From the NCBI GenBank assembly GCA_003009755.1, contig PXUB01000049.1, positions 1 through 27,048 on the forward strand: a stretch of 27,048 nt of DNA. The letters run 5' to 3'. The notes beneath the pieces were generated by a model. It ran no database searches. It worked only from the letters and a program-made list of their open reading frames with translations, and was not told the DNA's origin. A program made the translations under genes and the position numbers. Shown one piece after another: positions 4,375 to 16,446 of this stretch; the stretch's first letter is position 1; every line of letters begins with the position of its first letter. The stretch is from Thermoplasmatales archaeon SW_10_69_26. Its GTDB lineage: Archaea > Thermoplasmatota > SW-10-69-26.

Positions 4375-5202
4375 GTGTCGAACGAGGAGAAGTCGACGGG
4401 CGACGTGGCCGTGATCGGCGCCGGCAACATGGGCACGGCGTTGATCCGCGGCTTGCTTGGTTCGGGCTGGACGAACGATCAGATCCTGGCCACCGGCCCC
4501 GATCCGGCCAAGATGGCCGACCTCGAGGAGACGCTGGGCGTTCAGACGGCCACCGAGAACCGCAAGGGCGCGGCCTTCGGCGAGACGGTCGTGATGGCGG
4601 TCAAGCCCCAGATCATCGACGGCGTGCTGGACGAGGTCGCCGACAGTTTGCAGCCGGGCGCGCTCGTCGTCTCGGTCGCGGCCGGCATCCCGACGGACCG
4701 GATCGAGGCGCAGTTGACCGGCGACCAGCCGGTCGTGCGCACGATGCCGAACCTTCCGGCCACCGTGGGCTACGGCGCGACCGCGATGTGCGCTGGCGAC
4801 CACGCCGACGCCGAGCACCTGGTGACGACGCGGCGCCTGTTCGAGAGCGTGGGCAGCGTCGTCGGGGTCGACGAGTCGCTGATGGACGCGGTGACCGGCT
4901 TGTCGGGCACCGGCCCGATGTACGTGTTCCAGATCATCGAGGGCCTCTCGGATGCCGGCGTCAAGGTCGGTCTCTCTCGCGAGGACGCGCACGAGCTGGC
5001 GATGCAGACCGTGCTCGGGGCAGCCGTGATGGCGCGCGAGTCCGGCCAGCACCCGGCCGAGCTCAAGGACCGGGTGACCTCACCCGCCGGGACGGGCATC
5101 ACGGCGCTGCACGAGATGGAGCGCGGCGGGCTCCGTGCGCTGTTGATCGACGCGGTCGAGGCCGCGACCGATCGCAGCCGCGAGCTCGGCGATCACGGCT
5201 GA
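4375..5202 (+). CDS. proC: Pyrroline-5-carboxylate reductase
   Basis: ProC reduces 1-pyrroline-5-carboxylate to L-proline with NAD(P)H, the last step of proline synthesis. The 275-aa protein has the usual length. An N-terminal Rossmann motif GAGNMG (about residues 14-19) binds the nucleotide, followed by VVMAVKPQ, VVSVAAGIP, VRTMPNLPATVGYG and the C-terminal signature region with GLSGTGPMYV and TSPAGTGI. GTG at 4375 is the start because it gives the expected N terminus and lies just downstream of the shared promoter; the frame is open upstream only antisense to the recJ-like gene. Its last 10 nt overlap the end of the convergent PGF-CTERM-like gene. Proline is also a common compatible solute. 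Confidence 0.95.
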   Translation: MSNEEKSTGDVAVIGAGNMGTALIRGLLGSGWTNDQILATGPDPAKMADLEETLGVQTATENRKGAAFGETVVMAVKPQIIDGVLDEVADSLQPGALVVSVAAGIPTDRIEAQLTGDQPVVRTMPNLPATVGYGATAMCAGDHADAEHLVTTRRLFESVGSVVGVDESLMDAVTGLSGTGPMYVFQIIEGLSDAGVKVGLSREDAHELAMQTVLGAAVMARESGQHPAELKDRVTSPAGTGITALHEMERGGLRALLIDAVEAATDRSRELGDHG

Positions 5203-5540
5203 CGCCGGCCAGCCAGCACCGCCAGCGCGCCGGCGACGGCCACGGTCGCGCTCGCCGCGAAGCCGGGGGCGTCGTTCGTCTGCTCGTCGCCGGTGTCCGA
5301 GGAGGCGTTGGATCGGTCCCCGTCACCGCCGTCGTCCTGGCCGGTGTCCTCCTCGGCGGCGAGCTCCTGGGTCGCCTGGGAGGTGTTGTCGACCTGTTGC
5401 TCGTACTCGGCGAAGGGGTCCTCACCCTCGAAGGGATCCTCCTCCTCGGCGAAGGGGTCCTCCTCGCGCTCCTGAGCGAGCGCCAGGGGGGTGGCGGCGA
5501 GCAGGCACACCGCCAGCGTGACCCCGACCAGGGGCTTCAT
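5193..5540 (-). CDS. Secreted protein with DPF repeats and PGF-CTERM-like sorting tail
   Basis: This 115-aa protein starts with a signal peptide (residues 1-22, cleavage after ALA expected). Three DPF units follow (EEDPFAEEEDPFEGEDPFAEY), then a very acidic, Ser/Thr/Asn-rich stalk to about residue 90. The C terminus is a PGF-CTERM-like signal: PGF at 92-94, a hydrophobic span (about 95-110) and GRRQP. In haloarchaea such tails are processed by archaeosortase A and replaced by a lipid anchor. The ATG at 5540 overlaps the stop of the cysteine-rich gene upstream by 4 nt (ATGA), so the two are probably co-translated. No enzyme domain is present; a cell-surface anchor or partner for the upstream protein is a reasonable inference. 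Confidence 0.75.
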   Translation of the reverse strand: MKPLVGVTLAVCLLAATPLALAQEREEDPFAEEEDPFEGEDPFAEYEQQVDNTSQATQELAAEEDTGQDDGGDGDRSNASSDTGDEQTNDAPGFAASATVAVAGALAVLAGRRQP

Positions 5541-7066
5541 CGGTCCTCCCCTCCGCGGTCGAAGTCGGCGAAGGACGGGCACAGATCGAGGGCGCGTTCA
5601 GGCAGCAGGTCGCCGGGGTTGGCGTCGAAGAGGCCGTGGCGGGCGATGGCGTCGAGGGCGGCGCCCTCGGCCTTCTGGCAGGCGGTTTCGCGCGCGTCCT
5701 CGGCCTTGTCCTTGAACGAGCTTTTGAGCTCCTTGTGGCGTTGGGTGATGTCGGTCTTCAGCTCGTCGAGGCCGGCGCGGGCCTCGGCCAGGCACGAGCG
5801 CAGCTCGTCGTTGCGGTCGCCGGGGTCGGCGTCGTCGGGGATCTGGGCCCGGCAGTCCTCGTAATCCTGGCGCAACTGGTCCTTGTTGTCCTGGTACTCC
5901 GCGCGCAGGTCGTCGACCTGCGCCTCGTAGTCCCCGCGCATGTCGTCGAGCTGTTGGCGGAACGTCTGGGCGGCGTCCTGCAGGGTCTCGGCGATCTGGG
6001 AGCGCGCCTGGCTGCGGGCCTGGGACTTGTCCTCGCCGAACAGGTGCTCGTCACCCACGTCGTCGGTCTCGACGGGCTGGCGCTGGGTCCGCTCTCGCTC
6101 GTCGGCGTCGGTCTCGCGGATCTCGGACTCGCTGGTGTCGGGCTCGCGGGCGTCGGCTGGGTGGCGGTCGGGGATCTCGCACAGGAAGGTGCCGTCGCCG
6201 CGGTCCCGGCATTCGGGCGGGGGCGTGCAGCGCTCGGTCTCCCCGATCTCGTCTGCGCACTCGGCGGGCGGTTCGCACACGACCGTGCCGCGCTCGGGCC
6301 CGGGTTCGCACGAGGGGCCGGTCTCGGGCTCGTGCTCGGTCGTCGGCTCGCGGGCGTCCTCGGGCGGCGTGCAGACCATGCGCCCGTCGCGCGATTCGCA
6401 CTCCGGCGGGAGCTGGCAGCGATCCGTCGTGGCGTCTTCACAGTCCGGCGGGAGCGGGCACACGAGGGTGCCATCGGGCCCGGGTTGACAGTCCTCGCTC
6501 GTGGTCTCGGCCTCGTGGTCCGCCTCGCGGCGGTCCTCGCGGGCCTGGTCGGGCGGCCCCTCGCCCGCGCTCGTCGGGCAGCGGTAGAGGTCCTCGCGGA
6601 CGGGTTCGCAGGAGGTGGGCGGTCGGCAGTCGGGCGATCGGCGGCACTCCTCGGTCGGTCGGCACACGAGCTCGCCGATCTCCTCGTCGAGCCGGCACTC
6701 GGCGGCGGGGCCGGAGATCTCGGCGGATCGGGACCCGTCCTCGCTGCGGATCAGCTCCGGCTCGTTGGCATCGGTGGTCTCGGTCGTCTCCGCATCCGCC
6801 TTCGCGTTGACGTCGTCGGGCGGTTCGCAGCGGACGGTGGTCTCGTCCCGCCACTCGCACTCGGGGGGCGGCTGGCACTCCTCGTCGGCGCGGCATTCCT
6901 CGGGGACCTGGCAGATGGAGGCCTCGGTCCCGTCGTCGGCCGGCCGGCAGTCGGGTTCGGTCTCCTCGACGAGGGCCCCTGCGGCGGGGGCCGTCCCGGA
7001 GCCGACGAGCAGTGCGAACGTGACGAGGCCCGCCAACAACCGTTTCGCTTGGGCAGCAACCACCAT
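5537..7066 (-). CDS. Secreted cysteine-rich repeat protein with coiled-coil C terminus
   Basis: The 509-aa protein is not a family I recognise. An N-terminal signal-like hydrophobic segment (residues 7-30) is followed by four degenerate repeats of six cysteines each, at about 40-80, 124-163, 193-232 and 253-296. The pattern is C-x9-11-C-x5-C-x5-9-C-x5-C-x8-9-C, with Pro-rich CxPPxEC cores, separated by acidic Thr/Glu linkers. Residues about 345-465 are heptad-like and charged (coiled coil), with further Cys at 405, 425, 463 and 496. This suggests an exported, disulfide-stabilised, oligomeric surface protein. It has no anchor of its own; the next gene, overlapping by ATGA, supplies a PGF-CTERM-like tail. 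ATG at 7066 has a TATA-like CTTACAAG about 32 nt upstream. Confidence 0.75.
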   Translation of the reverse strand: MVVAAQAKRLLAGLVTFALLVGSGTAPAAGALVEETEPDCRPADDGTEASICQVPEECRADEECQPPPECEWRDETTVRCEPPDDVNAKADAETTETTDANEPELIRSEDGSRSAEISGPAAECRLDEEIGELVCRPTEECRRSPDCRPPTSCEPVREDLYRCPTSAGEGPPDQAREDRREADHEAETTSEDCQPGPDGTLVCPLPPDCEDATTDRCQLPPECESRDGRMVCTPPEDAREPTTEHEPETGPSCEPGPERGTVVCEPPAECADEIGETERCTPPPECRDRGDGTFLCEIPDRHPADAREPDTSESEIRETDADERERTQRQPVETDDVGDEHLFGEDKSQARSQARSQIAETLQDAAQTFRQQLDDMRGDYEAQVDDLRAEYQDNKDQLRQDYEDCRAQIPDDADPGDRNDELRSCLAEARAGLDELKTDITQRHKELKSSFKDKAEDARETACQKAEGAALDAIARHGLFDANPGDLLPERALDLCPSFADFDRGGEDR

Positions 7067-7184: not shown

Positions 7185-8123
7185 GTGCAGTGCTCGGCCT
7201 GCGAGAGCCCGGCGGTCACCCATCTGGATTACGCGGGGCGTGACCTGTGCGCCGACCACTTCCAGCGGCTCGTCGAGAGCCGATTCAAGAAGCAGCTGCG
7301 CGAGCAACTGGAGGCCCTGGGCGCGGGCGAGGGCGCCAGGATCGCGGTCGGGTTGTCCGGCGGCAAGGACTCGAGCACGTTGACGGCGCTGCTCGTGGAC
7401 GCCCTGGGCCCGGACCCGCGCTTCGAGATCGTGCCGATCAGCGTGGACGAGGGGATCCCCGGTTACCGCGGGCCCGCGCTATCGTCGGCCGAGGAGCTGG
7501 CCGACCAGCTGGATCTCGATCTCCGCGTCGTCTCGCACGAGGACGATCACGGGTGGACGACCGACGAGGTCGCCCAGACCGAGACCGAGGGCAAGCCGTG
7601 CGGAACGTGTGGCGTGTTCCGCCGCTCCTCGTTGAACCAGGCCGCCCGCGACGAGGACTGCGATGTGCTGGCGGTCGGCCACAACCTCGACGATTGCGCG
7701 GAGACGACGCTGATGAACCTGCTGCGGTCCGACCTGGAGCAGGTGCTCCGCACCGGCCCGCACGAGCAGGCACCCGAGGGCCTGATCCCGCGCGTGAAAC
7801 CGTTGCGCAGCTGCACCGAGCGCGAGGTTGCCCTCTATGGTGTGATCGAGGAGCTGCCCTACCACGGTGCCGAGTGCCCGCACGCGGCCGAGGCAACCCG
7901 GCGCACCTACCGCTCGCTGTTGCTGGACCTGGTCGACCACGAGCCCAGCGCCCGCCACCGTCTGCTGAGCCTGGAGGACAAGCTCAAGGACCGGTTGGAC
8001 GCCGGCGAGGCCGACGAGACCGAGCTGGAGCCGTGCCCGGAGTGTGGGGAACCCAGCGCCGGCGGCGAGTGCCGAGCCTGCCAGCTGGCGGCCGAGCTCG
8101 AGGCCGCCCACGCCGACGCCTGA
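7185..8123 (+). CDS. TtuA/NcsA-type tRNA 2-thiouridine synthetase
   Basis: This 312-aa PP-loop ATPase belongs to the TtuA/Ncs6/NcsA group, which adenylates and thiolates a tRNA uridine (position 54 or the wobble base). The N terminus has a zinc finger (C3, C6, C22, H25) and the C terminus a second one (C284, C287, C296, C299). The PP-loop SGGKDSS is at 58-64. C139, C142 and C231 have the spacing of the TtuA [4Fe-4S] ligands, and GHNLDDCAETTLMNLLR (165-181) is the family signature. GTG at 7185 starts the protein exactly at the zinc finger, as expected. It is followed after 68 nt by a membrane protein and larE-like gene. Which tRNA position is modified cannot be told from sequence. Confidence 0.9.
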   Translation: MQCSACESPAVTHLDYAGRDLCADHFQRLVESRFKKQLREQLEALGAGEGARIAVGLSGGKDSSTLTALLVDALGPDPRFEIVPISVDEGIPGYRGPALSSAEELADQLDLDLRVVSHEDDHGWTTDEVAQTETEGKPCGTCGVFRRSSLNQAARDEDCDVLAVGHNLDDCAETTLMNLLRSDLEQVLRTGPHEQAPEGLIPRVKPLRSCTEREVALYGVIEELPYHGAECPHAAEATRRTYRSLLLDLVDHEPSARHRLLSLEDKLKDRLDAGEADETELEPCPECGEPSAGGECRACQLAAELEAAHADA

Positions 8124-10807: not shown

Positions 10808-11068
10808 TCAGTCGATCTCCATGGCCTCGACCCAGATGCCGGCTTCCTTGAGGTTCACGAAGCCGCCGCACTCCCGGCAGTAGTAGTCCTCCTCGTCGAC
10901 GTCGGTCGCCCCGCCCACGATCTCGACCCAGGGACCGGCCTCGGCGGCCTTCGTGAGCATGGTGAGGCGAGGCTCCCCGCAGTGGGGGCACTCGGCCGTC
11001 CAGGCCGTGATCTCCTGCTCGATCTCCTCCTCGACGTTGTCGGGCACGGGATCGTCGCGTCGTTCCAT
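10808..11068 (-). CDS. Small zinc-ribbon protein coupled to hutH
   Basis: The 86-aa acidic protein carries a CPHC pair (about residues 27-30) and a CREC pair (about 64-67) that would form one zinc ribbon, separated by a predicted beta region (GPWVEIVGGATDVDEEDYY). No catalytic motif is visible. Its ATG shares one base with the hutH stop codon (TGATG), so it is almost certainly co-transcribed and translationally coupled to hutH, although a role in histidine degradation has not been shown. Alternatively it could be a housekeeping nucleic-acid-binding ribbon that only shares the transcript. The family is not recognised. Confidence 0.75.
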   Translation of the reverse strand: MERRDDPVPDNVEEEIEQEITAWTAECPHCGEPRLTMLTKAAEAGPWVEIVGGATDVDEEDYYCRECGGFVNLKEAGIWVEAMEID

Positions 11069-12615
11069 CAGATGTCCTCCAGGGTGAGAAGCGGACCGAC
11101 GGTGTCCTCGGCGGCCTCGCGCAGCTCGCCCTCGGCCACCATCGCCGCCAGGGTTCGGATGTCGGGGCGAAGCTCGCGGTCGCCGTCGAGCGCGGGGACC
11201 TCTTCGCGGATCCGAGCGTGGGCGGCTTTCACGCCGACGCCGGGTTCGATCGGGGCGTGGAAGTCGATCGCTTGCGCGGCCGTGAGAGCCTCGATGCCGA
11301 GCACGGTCTCGAGGTTGGCCAGGATCTGGCGGGCGTGGAGGGCCTGGGCGGCCCCCATCGCGTTCACGTCCTCCTGGTTGCCGCTGGTGGGGACCGTGTC
11401 GGCGACGACCGGGTGGGATAGGGCCTGGTTCTCGTTCGTGAGGCTGGCGGAGACGTACTGGGGGATCATCAGGCCGCTGTTCACGCCGCCGCCGGTCGTG
11501 AGGAACGGCGGCAGCTCAATGTCCTCGCCCTGCAACAGGTGGCTGGTGCGGCGTTCGCTGGCGACGGCGAGCTTGGCCAGGCAGCTGGCGACGTAGGCGA
11601 TCGGTTGGCCCAGCGGTTCGCCGTGGAAGTTGCCGCCGCTGATGACGAGCTCGTCGTCGGGGAACACGAGCGGGTTGTCGGTGGCGGCGTTGATCTCGGT
11701 CGACAGGACCTCGGCCAGGTGCCCGACGGCGTCCAGCACGGCGCCGTGGACCTGGGGCATGCAGCGGAACGAGTACGGGTCCTGCACCTTGTCGCAGTTG
11801 CGGTGGGACAGCATGATGCCGCTGTCCTCGAGCAGGGCTTCCAGGGTCGCGGCGACCCGGCAGGCGCCCTCGTGCGGGCGGACCTGGCGCAGCCGTTCGT
11901 CGAAGGGCCAGCGCGAGGCGCGCAGCCCCTCCACGCTCATGGCGCCGGTGATGCAGGCGGTGGCGATCGCGCGCCGGGCGTCCTGCACCAGCAGGCACCC
12001 GATGGCGGCCTGCAGCTGGGTGCCGTTGATCAACGCCAGGCCCTCCTTGGGTTCCAGGGTGAGGGGCTGGATGCCGACCTCGGCCAGCGCTTCGTCCGCG
12101 GGGCGGGTGCCCTCGTCGGCGCGGACCTTGCCGGCGCCGGTGAGGGCTCGGGCCATGTGGGCCAACGGGACCAGGTCCCCGCTGGAACCCACGCTGCCGC
12201 GGCTGGGCACGCGGGGGACGATGCCGACGTTGAGGGCCTCGATGAGGGTCTCGATGACGGCGGGGCGGACCCCGCTGACGCCTTTGGCGAGCGCGTTGGC
12301 GCGCAGCAGCATCATGGCGCGAACGACGTCGGCCGGCAGCGGGTCGCCGACGCCGCAGGCGTGCGAGGCGAGCAGGTTCTCCTGAAGCTGGCGGGCGTCC
12401 CCGGCGTCGATCGCCGTGTCCTCGAGCTCGCCGATGCCCGTGGTGACGCCGTAGACGGTCTCCTCGCTGTCGAGGAGGTCGTCGACGTAGCTGCGGGAGG
12501 CTTCGACGTCGGCGAGCGCGTCGTCGGCGAGCGCGACCGGCGCGTGCTCGCGGGCGACGCGGACGACGTCCTCGACCGTGAGCGAGGTGCCATCGCAGGT
12601 GACGGTGTGGGGCAT
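11068..12615 (-). CDS. hutH: Histidine ammonia-lyase
   Basis: HutH removes ammonia from L-histidine to give trans-urocanate. The 515-aa length is normal. Recognisable blocks include YGVTTGIG with the catalytic Tyr (Y55), SRGSVGSSGDLVPLAHMA (138-155), and the later GNFHGEPLG and Gln-rich active-site segments. The triad that cyclises into the MIO electrophile is usually Ala-Ser-Gly; here it reads Ser-Ser-Gly (144-146). The central Ser and Gly are kept, so MIO formation is plausible, but the substitution is unusual. ATG at 12615 has a TATA-like element (CCTTTTGC, about 12644-12651) 30 nt upstream. The zinc-ribbon gene follows with a 1-nt overlap; hutU lies 1.4 kb upstream, beyond an SDR gene. 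Confidence 0.95.
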   Translation of the reverse strand: MPHTVTCDGTSLTVEDVVRVAREHAPVALADDALADVEASRSYVDDLLDSEETVYGVTTGIGELEDTAIDAGDARQLQENLLASHACGVGDPLPADVVRAMMLLRANALAKGVSGVRPAVIETLIEALNVGIVPRVPSRGSVGSSGDLVPLAHMARALTGAGKVRADEGTRPADEALAEVGIQPLTLEPKEGLALINGTQLQAAIGCLLVQDARRAIATACITGAMSVEGLRASRWPFDERLRQVRPHEGACRVAATLEALLEDSGIMLSHRNCDKVQDPYSFRCMPQVHGAVLDAVGHLAEVLSTEINAATDNPLVFPDDELVISGGNFHGEPLGQPIAYVASCLAKLAVASERRTSHLLQGEDIELPPFLTTGGGVNSGLMIPQYVSASLTNENQALSHPVVADTVPTSGNQEDVNAMGAAQALHARQILANLETVLGIEALTAAQAIDFHAPIEPGVGVKAAHARIREEVPALDGDRELRPDIRTLAAMVAEGELREAAEDTVGPLLTLEDI

Positions 12616-12643
12616 CGGGACACTCAGGCACCCGCCCTCGTGG

Positions 12644-12652
12644 GCAAAAGGC
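12644..12652 (-). promoter_or_regulatory. TATA-like box of hutH
   Basis: GCCTTTTGC on the minus strand lies about 30 nt before the hutH ATG, within the 63-nt gap that separates hutH from the SDR gene. HutH therefore probably has its own promoter. Confidence 0.35.
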
Positions 12653-12678
12653 TACCGGGGGACGCCGTGCCGGGCGAC

Positions 12679-13551
12679 TCAGCGCGGCTTGGGCCAGCTG
12701 TCGGCGCCGGTGGCTTCCTCGCTGACTCGCCACAGCTCGGCGGCCAGCGCCTCGTCCTGGGCCTTGCCGGAGGGGTCCCGAGCCTCTCGGTCGATGTAGT
12801 ACCGGCCGGTGTCGTCCTCGACCTCGGGCGAGGTGGCCAGGAACAGCGAGGTGTCGGCGGCCTCGTCGGGCTGGGTGAGGAACGGGCGGGCGATCTTCAT
12901 GAACCAGCGCACGTACCAGGGGCCCTCGCGTCCGAAGTTCGAGCCGACGACCCCCGGGTGCAGGCAGTTGGCAGTCACGATCCCGGGGTCCAGGCGGAGG
13001 GCGAGGGCGCGCGTGAACAGGATGTTGTACAGCTTGGTCTGCGCGTACACTTTGAAGCCGCGGTAGCTGTCCTCCTGGTTCTCGAACCCGTCGGGGACCG
13101 AGCCGGCGCTGCGGTGGGCTTCGCTGGCGACGGTCACGACGCGTGCGGCTCGTCCCTGGCTGCCGGCCTCGCGCAGCGGGTCGAGCAGCTCGTGGGTGAG
13201 CAGGAAGGGGGCCAGGTGGTTGACGGCGAACTGGTACTCGTGCCCGTCGGGCGTGATCTCGCGCTCGTGAAGGACGAGCCCGGCGTTGTTGACGAGGACG
13301 TCGAGAGCGTCGGCGCGCTGGCTGATCTCGTAGGCGGCCTGCTGGATCTCGTCCTGGACGCTGAGGTCGCAGAGCACGATCTCGACGTCGTCGTTGCCGG
13401 TCGTGTCGACGACGTCCGCGCGGGCCTCGGTGGCCTTGGCCTCGTCGCGGCACAGCATCAGGACCCGGTGGCCGGCGTCGGCCAGCCCGCGCGCGGTCTC
13501 GCGCCCGATGCCGCTGTTGGCGCCCGTGACGAGGTAGGTGAGAGGCTGCAC
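12679..13551 (-). CDS. Short-chain dehydrogenase/reductase
   Basis: The 290-aa protein is a classical SDR: cofactor motif TGANSGIG (9-16) with R17 nearby and CRDEAKA after the second strand, which favours NADP(H); NNAG (88-91); catalytic S143, Y169 and K173 (YAQTK). The overall layout (LCDLSVQDEI, VNHLAPFLLTHELLDPL, HPGVVGSNFGR) is like the retinol dehydrogenase/WW-oxidoreductase group of SDRs. The substrate cannot be deduced. GTG at 13551 is the start because it lies directly before the Rossmann strand. It stands between hutH and hutU on the same strand, but with 63 nt and 442 nt of separation, so a link with histidine degradation is uncertain. Confidence 0.9.
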   Translation of the reverse strand: MQPLTYLVTGANSGIGRETARGLADAGHRVLMLCRDEAKATEARADVVDTTGNDDVEIVLCDLSVQDEIQQAAYEISQRADALDVLVNNAGLVLHEREITPDGHEYQFAVNHLAPFLLTHELLDPLREAGSQGRAARVVTVASEAHRSAGSVPDGFENQEDSYRGFKVYAQTKLYNILFTRALALRLDPGIVTANCLHPGVVGSNFGREGPWYVRWFMKIARPFLTQPDEAADTSLFLATSPEVEDDTGRYYIDREARDPSGKAQDEALAAELWRVSEEATGADSWPKPR

Positions 13552-13993
13552 GGTGGCGGGCAGGCAGCCCCCCGGCAAGACGTTTCCGATGGTTCCCCCG
13601 TCGACGCGACGCCGAGGCCGCCGGCAGCCGTCGGGCGGGCGCGGTGACGGTCTCGGCCGATCGGCGGGGCGTGGGTTCGCCCGGTCGCCGTCCCGGGGCC
13701 GAACAGGTGAAGGCGGGCGCCCTCGCGGGCCTCGATCACGTCGCTCCGGCGCTGGCGCGCCTCGGGGGCTTGCCGGCGGGGTGACCGGGTCGGGTGGACG
13801 GCGAGGTCGGGGGGGCCTCAGCCCCAGCGAGCAGCGTTGGCACAGCTCGCCGACGGGGAGGTGGGCGATCGGTCCGTCGGCGAACAGCGATCGCTCGGCC
13901 CGAGCCGTCCTCGAGGGCGTGGTTGGGCTCGCGCGTGGGAGGGCTAGGAGACACACTTGCGGTTGGCTCAGCCGTGGGGCCCGAGAAGGGGGC
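13552..13993. other. Gap without a convincing gene, with a repeated hairpin
   Basis: No gene is supported in these 442 nt. Open frames exist on both strands but are Arg/Pro-rich and GC-driven. One short minus-strand segment (about 13830-13900) reads LFADGPIAHLPVGELCQRC and could be a remnant of a zinc-ribbon gene. The sequence GGGGGC(C)TCAGCCCCAGCG occurs at 13811-13829 and again across the hutU stop at 13988-14005, each able to form a GGGGC/GCCCC hairpin. Confidence 0.4.
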
Positions 13994-14001
13994 TCAGCCC
14001 C
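13989..14001 (-). terminator. GC hairpin on the hutU stop codon
   Basis: GGGGC and GCCCC form a 5-bp stem whose 3-nt loop is exactly the hutU TGA stop. A near copy (13812-13825, loop of four) lies 177 nt further on. No T-run follows, so the role in termination is uncertain. Confidence 0.3.
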
Positions 14002-15637
14002 AGCGGTCGAACGCGTCGGTGGATTCGGCGATCTCTTCGGCGTCCTCGTAGCCGGCGTCGGCGTGGCGCACGATCCCGGAGCCGGGGTCGGCGTTGAACA
14101 CGTTGGCGATGCGGTCGTCGGCGTCGGCGGTGCCGTCGGCGACGACCATCATGCCGGCGTGCGTGGAGAGGCCGATGCCGACGCCGCCGCCGTTGTGGAT
14201 GGCGACCATGTCGGCGCCGGCGGAGGCGTTGAGGAGGGCGTTGAGCAGCGGCCAGTCGGCGATGGCGTCGGAGCCGTCCTTCATGCCTTCCGTCTCGCGG
14301 TAGGGGCTGGCGACGCTGCCGGTGTCGAGGTGGTCGCGCGTGATCGCGACGGGTCCGATCTCACCCGAGCGCACGCGGTCGTTGATCTCGCGGGCGAAGG
14401 TCTCCCGTTGGCCGAAGCCCAGCCAGCACACGCGCGCCGGCAACCCTTCGAAGGGGACGCGTTCCTGGGCGGCCTCGATCCATCGGGTGAGGGTCTCGTC
14501 TTCACCGAAGAGGTCGGTGACGAGGTCGTCGGTGACGGCGATGTCGTCCTCGTCGCCGGTGAGGGCGACCCAGCGGAACGGGCCCCGGCCCTGACAGAAC
14601 ATCGGACGCACGTAGGCCTTCACGAAGCCGGGGTAGGCGAAGGCCTCGTCGTAGCCGGCATCCTGGGCCTGCCCACGGAGGTTGTTGCCGTAGTCGAAGA
14701 CGACGCTGCCCTGGTCTTGGAAGGCCACCAACGCTTGGCAGTGGTCGACCATCGAGGCCCGAGCGGCCTCCTCGTGCTTGGCGGGGTCCTCCTCGCGTAG
14801 GCGGTCGGCTTCCTCGGGCGTGTACCCGGCGGGGATGTAGCCCGCGAGCGCGTCGTGGGCACTGGTTTGGTCGGTGACGACGTCGGGCTCGAAGCCTCTG
14901 TCCAGCAGCTCGGCGTGGGTCTCGGCGCAGTTGCCGATCAAGGCGACGCTGGTGGCTTCGCCGCGCTCGGCGGCGTCCTCGACGATGCTGACCGCCTCCT
15001 CGAGGTCGTGGGTCTTGTGCTGGCAGTAGCCGACGTCGATGCGTTCGTCGGCGTGGGCTTCGACGGCTTCGACGGCCAGGCAGGCGCCGCCGGCGATCTC
15101 GACGGCCAAGGGCTGGGCGCCGCCCATGCCGCCGAGGCCGCCGGTGAGCACGGTCTTGCCCTGTAGGGTGCCGTCGAAGTGTCGTCGGCCGACGGCGGCC
15201 ATCGTCTCGTAGGTGCCCTGGATGATGCCTTGGGTCCCGATGTAGCACCAGGAGCCGGCCGTCATCTGGCCGTACATCGTGAGGCCCTGGTCCTCGAGGT
15301 CGTGGAAGTCCTCCCAGGTGGACCAGCGCGGCACGAGGTTGCTGTTGGCGATCAGCACGCGCGGCGCGTCCTCGTGGGTGGGGAAGGTGGCCTGCGCGCG
15401 TCCGCTTTGGACGAGCAAGGTTTCGTCGTCCGCGAGCGTCTGGAGGGCCCTCGCGATCGTCTCCAGATCCTCGACCGAGCGCGCGGCCTTCCCGGTGCCG
15501 CCGTAGACGACGAGGTCCTCGGGCCGTTCGGCGTTCTCGAGGTTGTTGTACAGCAACCGGTAAACGGCTTCCGAGCGCCAGCTGGGGCAGGCTCGCTCGG
15601 TCCCGCGCGGCGCCTCGTAGGGAGGGGTCGAGGACAT
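13994..15637 (-). CDS. hutU: Urocanate hydratase
   Basis: HutU converts urocanate to 4-imidazolone-5-propionate using tightly bound NAD+ as an electrophile. The 547-aa length matches the family. Seen are VVYGGTGKAAR near the N terminus, the NAD-binding GGLGGMGGAQPLA (166-178), GNCAETH (235-241), and FCQGRGPFRWVALTG (347-361) with the conserved active-site-region Cys348. ATG at 15637 is used; the GTG at 15661 would lie in the TATA-like box (GGCTTATCG, about 15661-15669), which is 28 nt before the ATG. HutI and HutG/HutF are not in the window, so the pathway must be completed elsewhere. The gene is divergent from a lipoprotein gene at 15721. Confidence 0.96.
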   Translation of the reverse strand: MSSTPPYEAPRGTERACPSWRSEAVYRLLYNNLENAERPEDLVVYGGTGKAARSVEDLETIARALQTLADDETLLVQSGRAQATFPTHEDAPRVLIANSNLVPRWSTWEDFHDLEDQGLTMYGQMTAGSWCYIGTQGIIQGTYETMAAVGRRHFDGTLQGKTVLTGGLGGMGGAQPLAVEIAGGACLAVEAVEAHADERIDVGYCQHKTHDLEEAVSIVEDAAERGEATSVALIGNCAETHAELLDRGFEPDVVTDQTSAHDALAGYIPAGYTPEEADRLREEDPAKHEEAARASMVDHCQALVAFQDQGSVVFDYGNNLRGQAQDAGYDEAFAYPGFVKAYVRPMFCQGRGPFRWVALTGDEDDIAVTDDLVTDLFGEDETLTRWIEAAQERVPFEGLPARVCWLGFGQRETFAREINDRVRSGEIGPVAITRDHLDTGSVASPYRETEGMKDGSDAIADWPLLNALLNASAGADMVAIHNGGGVGIGLSTHAGMMVVADGTADADDRIANVFNADPGSGIVRHADAGYEDAEEIAESTDAFDRWG

Positions 15638-15660
15638 CGACGACGAAGGCGAGCCCGACA

Positions 15661-15669
15661 CGATAAGCC
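15661..15669 (-). promoter_or_regulatory. TATA-like box of hutU
   Basis: GGCTTATCG on the minus strand lies about 28 nt before the hutU ATG and argues against the GTG at 15661 as the start. Confidence 0.5.
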
Positions 15670-15720: not shown

Positions 15721-16446
15721 ATGCGAGTTCATGTACTGTTCGCCGTGGTCCTGCTGACGGCCGGCCTGGCCGGCTGCGCGACCGACGGCGAGGGATCTGC
15801 GAGCGTGTACGTGACGGACGCCCCGACGGACGAGTTCGAGGAGATCCACGTCGTCTTCTCGGACGCCTACGTCCACGAGGGCGGTGACGAGAACGAGACC
15901 GACACCAACGACTCAGAGGGCCCCGAGGGCGGTCCCTCGACCCAGGGTGACCCCTCCGAGGAGGGCGGGACCGAGGCGTCGTTCGGCCAGCACGGTGACC
16001 GTGGTGGGGACGGCGGCTCCGAGAACCGGTTCAGCCAGGAGGCGGGTTGGATCTCGCTCGTCGGCACCCAGGAACCGATCGACGTGAACCTGCTGAACGC
16101 GACCGGCACCCAGGCCGCGTTCCTGGGCGAGGCCAACCTCTCGGCCGGCACGTACACGCAGATCGCGATCGTCGTCGAGGACGCCTACGGCATCGACGAC
16201 AACGGGACCGAGGTCGACATCACGGTCCCCAGCGGCGTCGGTCGCGTCGTCCGATCCTTCCAGGTCGAGTCGGGGCAGGAGACCCAGATCGTCCTCGACC
16301 TCGATCTGGACAGGGCGATGACGGCGTCCAACGGCGACTGGAAGCTGACACCGGTGTTCGGCCAGACCGAGACCCGCGTCGTCGACGACGCCGAGTCCGG
16401 TGAACAGGCGCACGAGCCCGGCGAGGTCGCCGAGGTCGAGGCGTAG
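15721..16446 (+). CDS. Lipoprotein with DUF4382 domain
   Basis: The 241-aa product begins with a lipoprotein signal peptide whose lipobox LAGC places the lipidated Cys at residue 19. After it, ASVYVTDAPTDEFEEIHVVF is the typical opening of DUF4382, a beta-sandwich domain of cell-surface proteins in archaea and bacteria. The domain is interrupted after about residue 50 by a 50-residue acidic, Gly/Ser/Glu-rich insertion and resumes at GWISLVGTQEPIDVNLLNAT, AGTYTQIAIVVEDAYG and FQVESGQETQIVLDLDLD. An acidic tail ends the protein. Several N-x-T/S sites would allow glycosylation. The role is unknown. The next gene also encodes a lipoprotein but has its own promoter-like element. Confidence 0.85.
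   Translation: MRVHVLFAVVLLTAGLAGCATDGEGSASVYVTDAPTDEFEEIHVVFSDAYVHEGGDENETDTNDSEGPEGGPSTQGDPSEEGGTEASFGQHGDRGGDGGSENRFSQEAGWISLVGTQEPIDVNLLNATGTQAAFLGEANLSAGTYTQIAIVVEDAYGIDDNGTEVDITVPSGVGRVVRSFQVESGQETQIVLDLDLDRAMTASNGDWKLTPVFGQTETRVVDDAESGEQAHEPGEVAEVEA

Follow-up and report, generated by a model that had tools for sequence, protein, structure and literature searches.

A coupled gene pair encoding a cysteine-rich exported protein and a small, putatively anchored partner in Thermoplasmatota from salt lakes

How might an exported protein that lacks a membrane anchor of its own be kept at the surface of an archaeal cell? The question is raised by two genes on the minus strand of the window analysed here, a stretch of 27,048 nucleotides (contig 49 of a 2.8-Mb Thermoplasmatota genome; 70% G+C). 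The stop codon of the larger gene and the start codon of the smaller lie within an ATGA common to both at 5537-5540 (Table 1), confirming the overlap reported in an earlier note on this DNA. The small gene overlaps a plus-strand proC-like gene tail to tail by 10 nt, and the other flank of the pair is occupied by a divergent gene for a TtuA-like PP-loop protein that starts at 7185. A GTG at 7219 was rejected as the start of the large gene because the longer frame would overlap the start of this TtuA-like gene. The housekeeping neighbours give no functional hint. Also near the pair are genes for a HutH-type aromatic amino acid lyase and a urocanase (histidine degradation; 11068-15661, minus strand), which are adjoined by a gene for a putative lipoprotein with a DUF4382 domain (15721-16446, plus strand).

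Table 1. Features of the gene pair (window coordinates; residue numbers refer to the encoded proteins)
Feature	Coordinates	Strand	Basis or remark
Large gene, 509-aa exported Cys-rich protein, including stop	5537..7066	-	Open reading frame; G001 has an orthologue and a paralogue
Putative Sec signal peptide, residues 1-31	6974..7066	-	Only hydrophobic segment; cleavage site approximate, estimated from sequence
Six-Cys repeat 1, residues 40-80	6827..6949	-	
Six-Cys repeat 2, residues 124-163	6578..6697	-	
Six-Cys repeat 3, residues 193-232	6371..6490	-	
Six-Cys repeat 4, residues 253-296	6179..6310	-	Modelled alone, pLDDT 86.5
Helical hairpin, residues 344-476, C405 and C425 near tip	5639..6037	-	AlphaFold2; all five relatives share C-x19-21-C
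Short C-terminal stretch containing C496 at a conserved distance from C463	5540..5638	-	Cys spacings 20, 38, 33 identical
Small gene, 115-aa acidic protein, including stop, ATGA overlap with large gene	5193..5540	-	
DPF motif region, residues 26-47	5400..5465	-	Sequence; both G001 relatives carry DPF or DPLF/PPLF
PGF-CTERM-like tail, residues 92-115	5196..5267	-	TIGR04126 below cut-off; archaeosortase A in genome

The large protein begins with a hydrophobic signal of the Sec type, which is its sole hydrophobic segment; no internal or C-terminal membrane segment was found in this or the related large proteins. The signal is followed by four six-cysteine repeats, a linker and a C-terminal coiled-coil module with four further cysteines (C405, C425, C463 and C496). 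The repeats account for the first 24 cysteines and follow the pattern C-x9-11-C-x5-C-x5-9-C-x5-C-x8-9-C, for which 5000 shuffles of the sequence gave a mean of 0.002 occurrences and a maximum of one. The spacings of the last four cysteines are the same in three proteins, all of them close relatives. The earlier description of an exported protein with four such repeats, a long coiled coil and no anchor is borne out; its count of 24 cysteines holds for the repeats and misses the four in the C-terminal module, the total being 28.

An AlphaFold2 model of the full large protein, built from three sequences, has a mean pLDDT of 64.7 and a pTM of 0.37, so that its overall arrangement is unreliable. 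The helical hairpin within it (helices 344-407 and 415-476) is confident, with block pLDDT values mostly of 80-95, and C405 and C425 flank its tip on opposite sides in the model, where they probably form a disulfide that closes the tip. A single six-cysteine repeat, modelled from eight copies, is predicted to form two β-hairpins, a structure that may have arisen by internal duplication around two CxPPxEC turns.

In Pfam and NCBIfam the large protein matched nothing but coiled coils, all below threshold, and neither partner could be placed in a defining family. Sequence searches of the PDB gave apolipoprotein-type and other helices for the large protein and nothing for the repeat. Foldseek returned nothing with E <= 0.001 for either the repeat model or the full model (pTM 0.37), which is not proof of a new fold, and the best VIA-align Z score was 2.9, again an absence of a fold match that does not make the fold new. 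Pfam CBM_14 matched neither the large protein of the window (E up to 5) nor any of ten single repeats (E up to 1). None of these comparisons, whether with Pfam, NCBIfam, PDB sequences or known folds, assigns a function to the pair. Both families were unrecognised in the earlier note and are still so after these searches; a strong match of the repeats to a known domain, which it had named as contrary evidence, did not appear.

The small protein, which is devoid of any Pfam domain, consists of an N-terminal signal, three DPF motifs (at residues 28, 35 and 41), an acidic stretch and a tail, and carries a net charge of -21. Its tail (APGF-AASATVAVAGALAVLAG-RRQP) has the tripartite order of PGF motif, hydrophobic segment and basic residues, in keeping with the acidic, DPF-containing protein with a PGF-CTERM-like tail that had been described. 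Haloferax ArtA recognizes and processes tails of this kind (PMC7157517) and, according to a reference listed in that paper, permutation of the PGF motif blocks archaeosortase processing. The host genome encodes an archaeosortase A (139.5 bits against a cut-off of 75; G000:C39:21979-22806) as well as further proteins with PGF tails, so the sorting route exists there, and archaeosortase A exceeds the cut-off in all seven genomes of the class. Tail and enzyme thus resemble the PGF-CTERM/ArtA system (TIGR04126, TIGR04125), from which the small protein differs in its NCBIfam PGF-CTERM score of 18.8 bits (21.4 in the genome search), below the cut-off of 24.5.

A single-sequence search of 60 genomes with the large protein found relatives only in a sister genome, Thermoplasmata archaeon CSSed11_322R1 (G001), at two loci. 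This genome, which belongs to the same family as the host, comes from sediments of hypersaline soda lakes that were surveyed by metagenomics (PMC6146748). One locus (L007/L025) is orthologous: it has the same divergent TtuA-like neighbour, a large protein of 421 aa and a small protein of 107 aa whose start lies within a 4-nt GTGA overlap. The other (L010/L024), truncated where its contig ends, is a paralogue with a large protein of at least 527 aa (L010:1432-3012; G001:C211), in which N-terminal repeats of another type precede two six-cysteine repeats and the hairpin, and a small protein of 101 aa whose gene overlaps the large one by a single base. The N-terminal repeats are Trp-rich and arranged in tandem about 63 aa apart, each with four cysteines and conserved Trp, and had no Pfam match above the cut-off.

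A profile built from these three large proteins gave two weak matches (E about 0.004) in G006, a genome from another family of the class. They are the only matches in that genome and were found from the large protein alone, and at both loci a small gene encoding a PGF tail is adjacent. The large proteins of G006 are exported and contain only the hairpin (184 and 189 aa), with C-x19-C or C-x21-C at its tip. The genes for the small proteins (131 or 147 aa) begin 6-9 nt after the large gene, and their products have no DPF motif, carrying instead two copies each of SD-x-[DN]T[ST]-x-P. The G006 partners have 5-10 N-glycosylation sequons each; those of the window pair and of G001 have 0-3. The estimated contamination of G006 is 6%, which leaves some doubt about the lineage of these two loci. 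One of the divergent operons has a third gene (L020:194-1099; G006:C25), the start of which overlaps the stop of the small PGF gene; its product of 301 aa is CarboxypepD_reg-like (sub-threshold) and ends in a PGP tail.

At all five loci a small gene encoding a signal and an anchor-like PGF, PGP or PVP tail directly follows the hairpin gene, with an overlap of 1-4 nt or a gap of 6-9 nt between them. The five pairs come from three of the seven genomes of the class, and no orphan of either partner was found among the seven. The co-occurrence that the earlier note had proposed to look for is thus present throughout, the two divergent pairs included, and relatives in which the genes are never adjacent, its other contrary outcome, were not encountered. 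Searched with a profile of the five small proteins, the class yielded no full-length match beyond these, and the remaining matches were mainly to tails that belong to larger or unrelated proteins. Among 389 Thermoplasmatota genomes the hairpin profile gave no other credible match; one in G228 (E 1.7e-4) was discarded as a long SMC-like coiled coil lacking the cysteine pair, and weak matches in the host genome, where no paralogue of the large protein was found, were also discarded. A viral origin was rejected (no tblastn match in phage records and no relative in viral contigs). Literature searches on this class in combination with PGF-CTERM, and on cysteine-rich secreted proteins of halophilic archaea, yielded nothing on the pair. 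The gene pair is clearly real and conserved, and it is restricted to one uncultured class of Thermoplasmatota from salt lakes.

The six-cysteine repeat itself occurs in three of the 389 Thermoplasmatota genomes. A 1266-aa protein of G002 (L075:3765-7565; G002:C25) with 80 cysteines contains two copies (E 3e-15 and 3e-11) together with matches to CBM_14 (chitin-binding peritrophin-A; E 1.3e-10), and ends in a PGF tail of its own. Repeat and tail are shared with the window pair; in contrast to that pair, G002 has anchor and repeats on one chain, no hairpin match and a carA-like gene downstream in place of a small partner. The presence of repeat and PGF tail in one protein places the repeat at the cell surface, as a module anchored in cis in G002 and, on the best reading, in trans in the window pair. 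The core common to the large proteins is the helical hairpin with its cysteine pair and not the cysteine repeats: the divergent pairs lack the repeats, and G002 has them but no hairpin.

A surface protein anchored in trans best explains the pair, given the conserved coupling, the lack of orphans, a large protein without an anchor and a small one nearly without a folded domain. The two genes would then form a unit for surface display, the large protein being anchored by the small one. We place this reading only slightly above even, since binding, disulfides and tail processing are inferred, the pairs come from three genomes and the sister tails deviate from PGF. Translational coupling would allow both partners to be made together, and both would be exported through their Sec-type signals. 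The C-terminal tail would keep the small protein in the membrane, probably after processing and lipid attachment by ArtA where the tail is of the PGF type. The protein would project an acidic, disordered stalk, the short repeated motifs of which would bind the C-terminal hairpin of the large protein, with its probably disulfide-closed tip. The string of small disulfide-rich domains would face outwards as a stable spacer or binding surface, possibly in an adhesive, protective or substrate-binding role. A DsbA-like thioredoxin domain (Thioredoxin_4) in the host genome counts in favour of this reading, whereas the lack of a Thioredoxin_4 match in the sister genome (75% complete) counts against it. 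So do the DPF motifs, the putative docking sites, which are absent from the two divergent small proteins, where other short repeats take their place, and the tails, which are PGF in both G006 partners, PGP and PVP in the two from G001, and below the NCBIfam PGF-CTERM cut-off or unmatched in all five. PGP replaces PGF in several anchor tails of the class (L020, L035, L075, L094 and L097) and may therefore be tolerated.

Alternatively, the partners could be made together for a common surface process without binding each other, the large protein being secreted and released as a disulfide-rich molecule, for example with a binding or inhibitory function, and its partner serving as a separate acidic surface protein. 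The missing anchor of the large protein would fit such a release, tethering is inferred only and the short motifs differ between families; against this stand the strict adjacency at five of five loci with no orphan in the class, a small protein that is almost only stalk and anchor, and the cis-anchored repeat of G002, and we regard this alternative as unlikely, although the most serious of the three considered here.

In the SlaA/SlaB S-layer of Sulfolobales, the outer protein is secreted and its partner, a separate protein, is bound to the membrane (PMC10903991). The window pair, with a secreted large protein and a separate putative membrane partner, is similar in outline, and its acidic, stable, repeated domains would suit a minor or auxiliary S-layer component in which the small protein is the membrane anchor and the large one a lattice-associated spacer. 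However, no homology to SlaA or SlaB was found, the proteins are small, the divergent large proteins are the hairpin alone (184-189 aa), the coiled coil lies on the opposite partner, namely the large outer protein, and the anchors are acidic proteins of 101-147 aa without recognizable folded domains. Carried by no more than three of the seven genomes of the class, the pair is no general S-layer, and an auxiliary role in one is improbable. It is more doubtful still that the hairpin is a Skp-type extracytoplasmic holdase chaperone, retained at the membrane through its small partner, with the cysteine repeats as accessories: its shape, a weak OmpH score and the hairpin-only G006 relatives agree with such a role, but the Pfam OmpH score of the large protein (12.3 bits against a cut-off of 32.4) is of the same order as that of many unrelated coiled coils, and no fold match was obtained.

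In surface proteins of the PGF type, a single chain normally supplies both the anchor and the ectodomain. Those found elsewhere in this class likewise have their own ectodomain, whereas in the window pair the anchor is almost only a stalk and the ectodomain is encoded by a separate gene. Extending the display unit, we tentatively suggest a modular arrangement, less probable than the display unit itself, in which a small anchor with repeated docking peptides recruits a separate ectodomain through a disulfide-closed hairpin; hairpin and anchor would be kept while the ectodomain is exchanged (none, six-cysteine or four-cysteine Trp-rich).

The pair adds two undescribed protein families. If the display reading is correct, a unit in which anchor and ectodomain have separate coupled genes, the helical module is conserved and the cysteine-rich ectodomains can be exchanged would give archaea a further route to building and diversifying their surfaces, one that is rich in disulfides in halophiles whose proteins are acidic.
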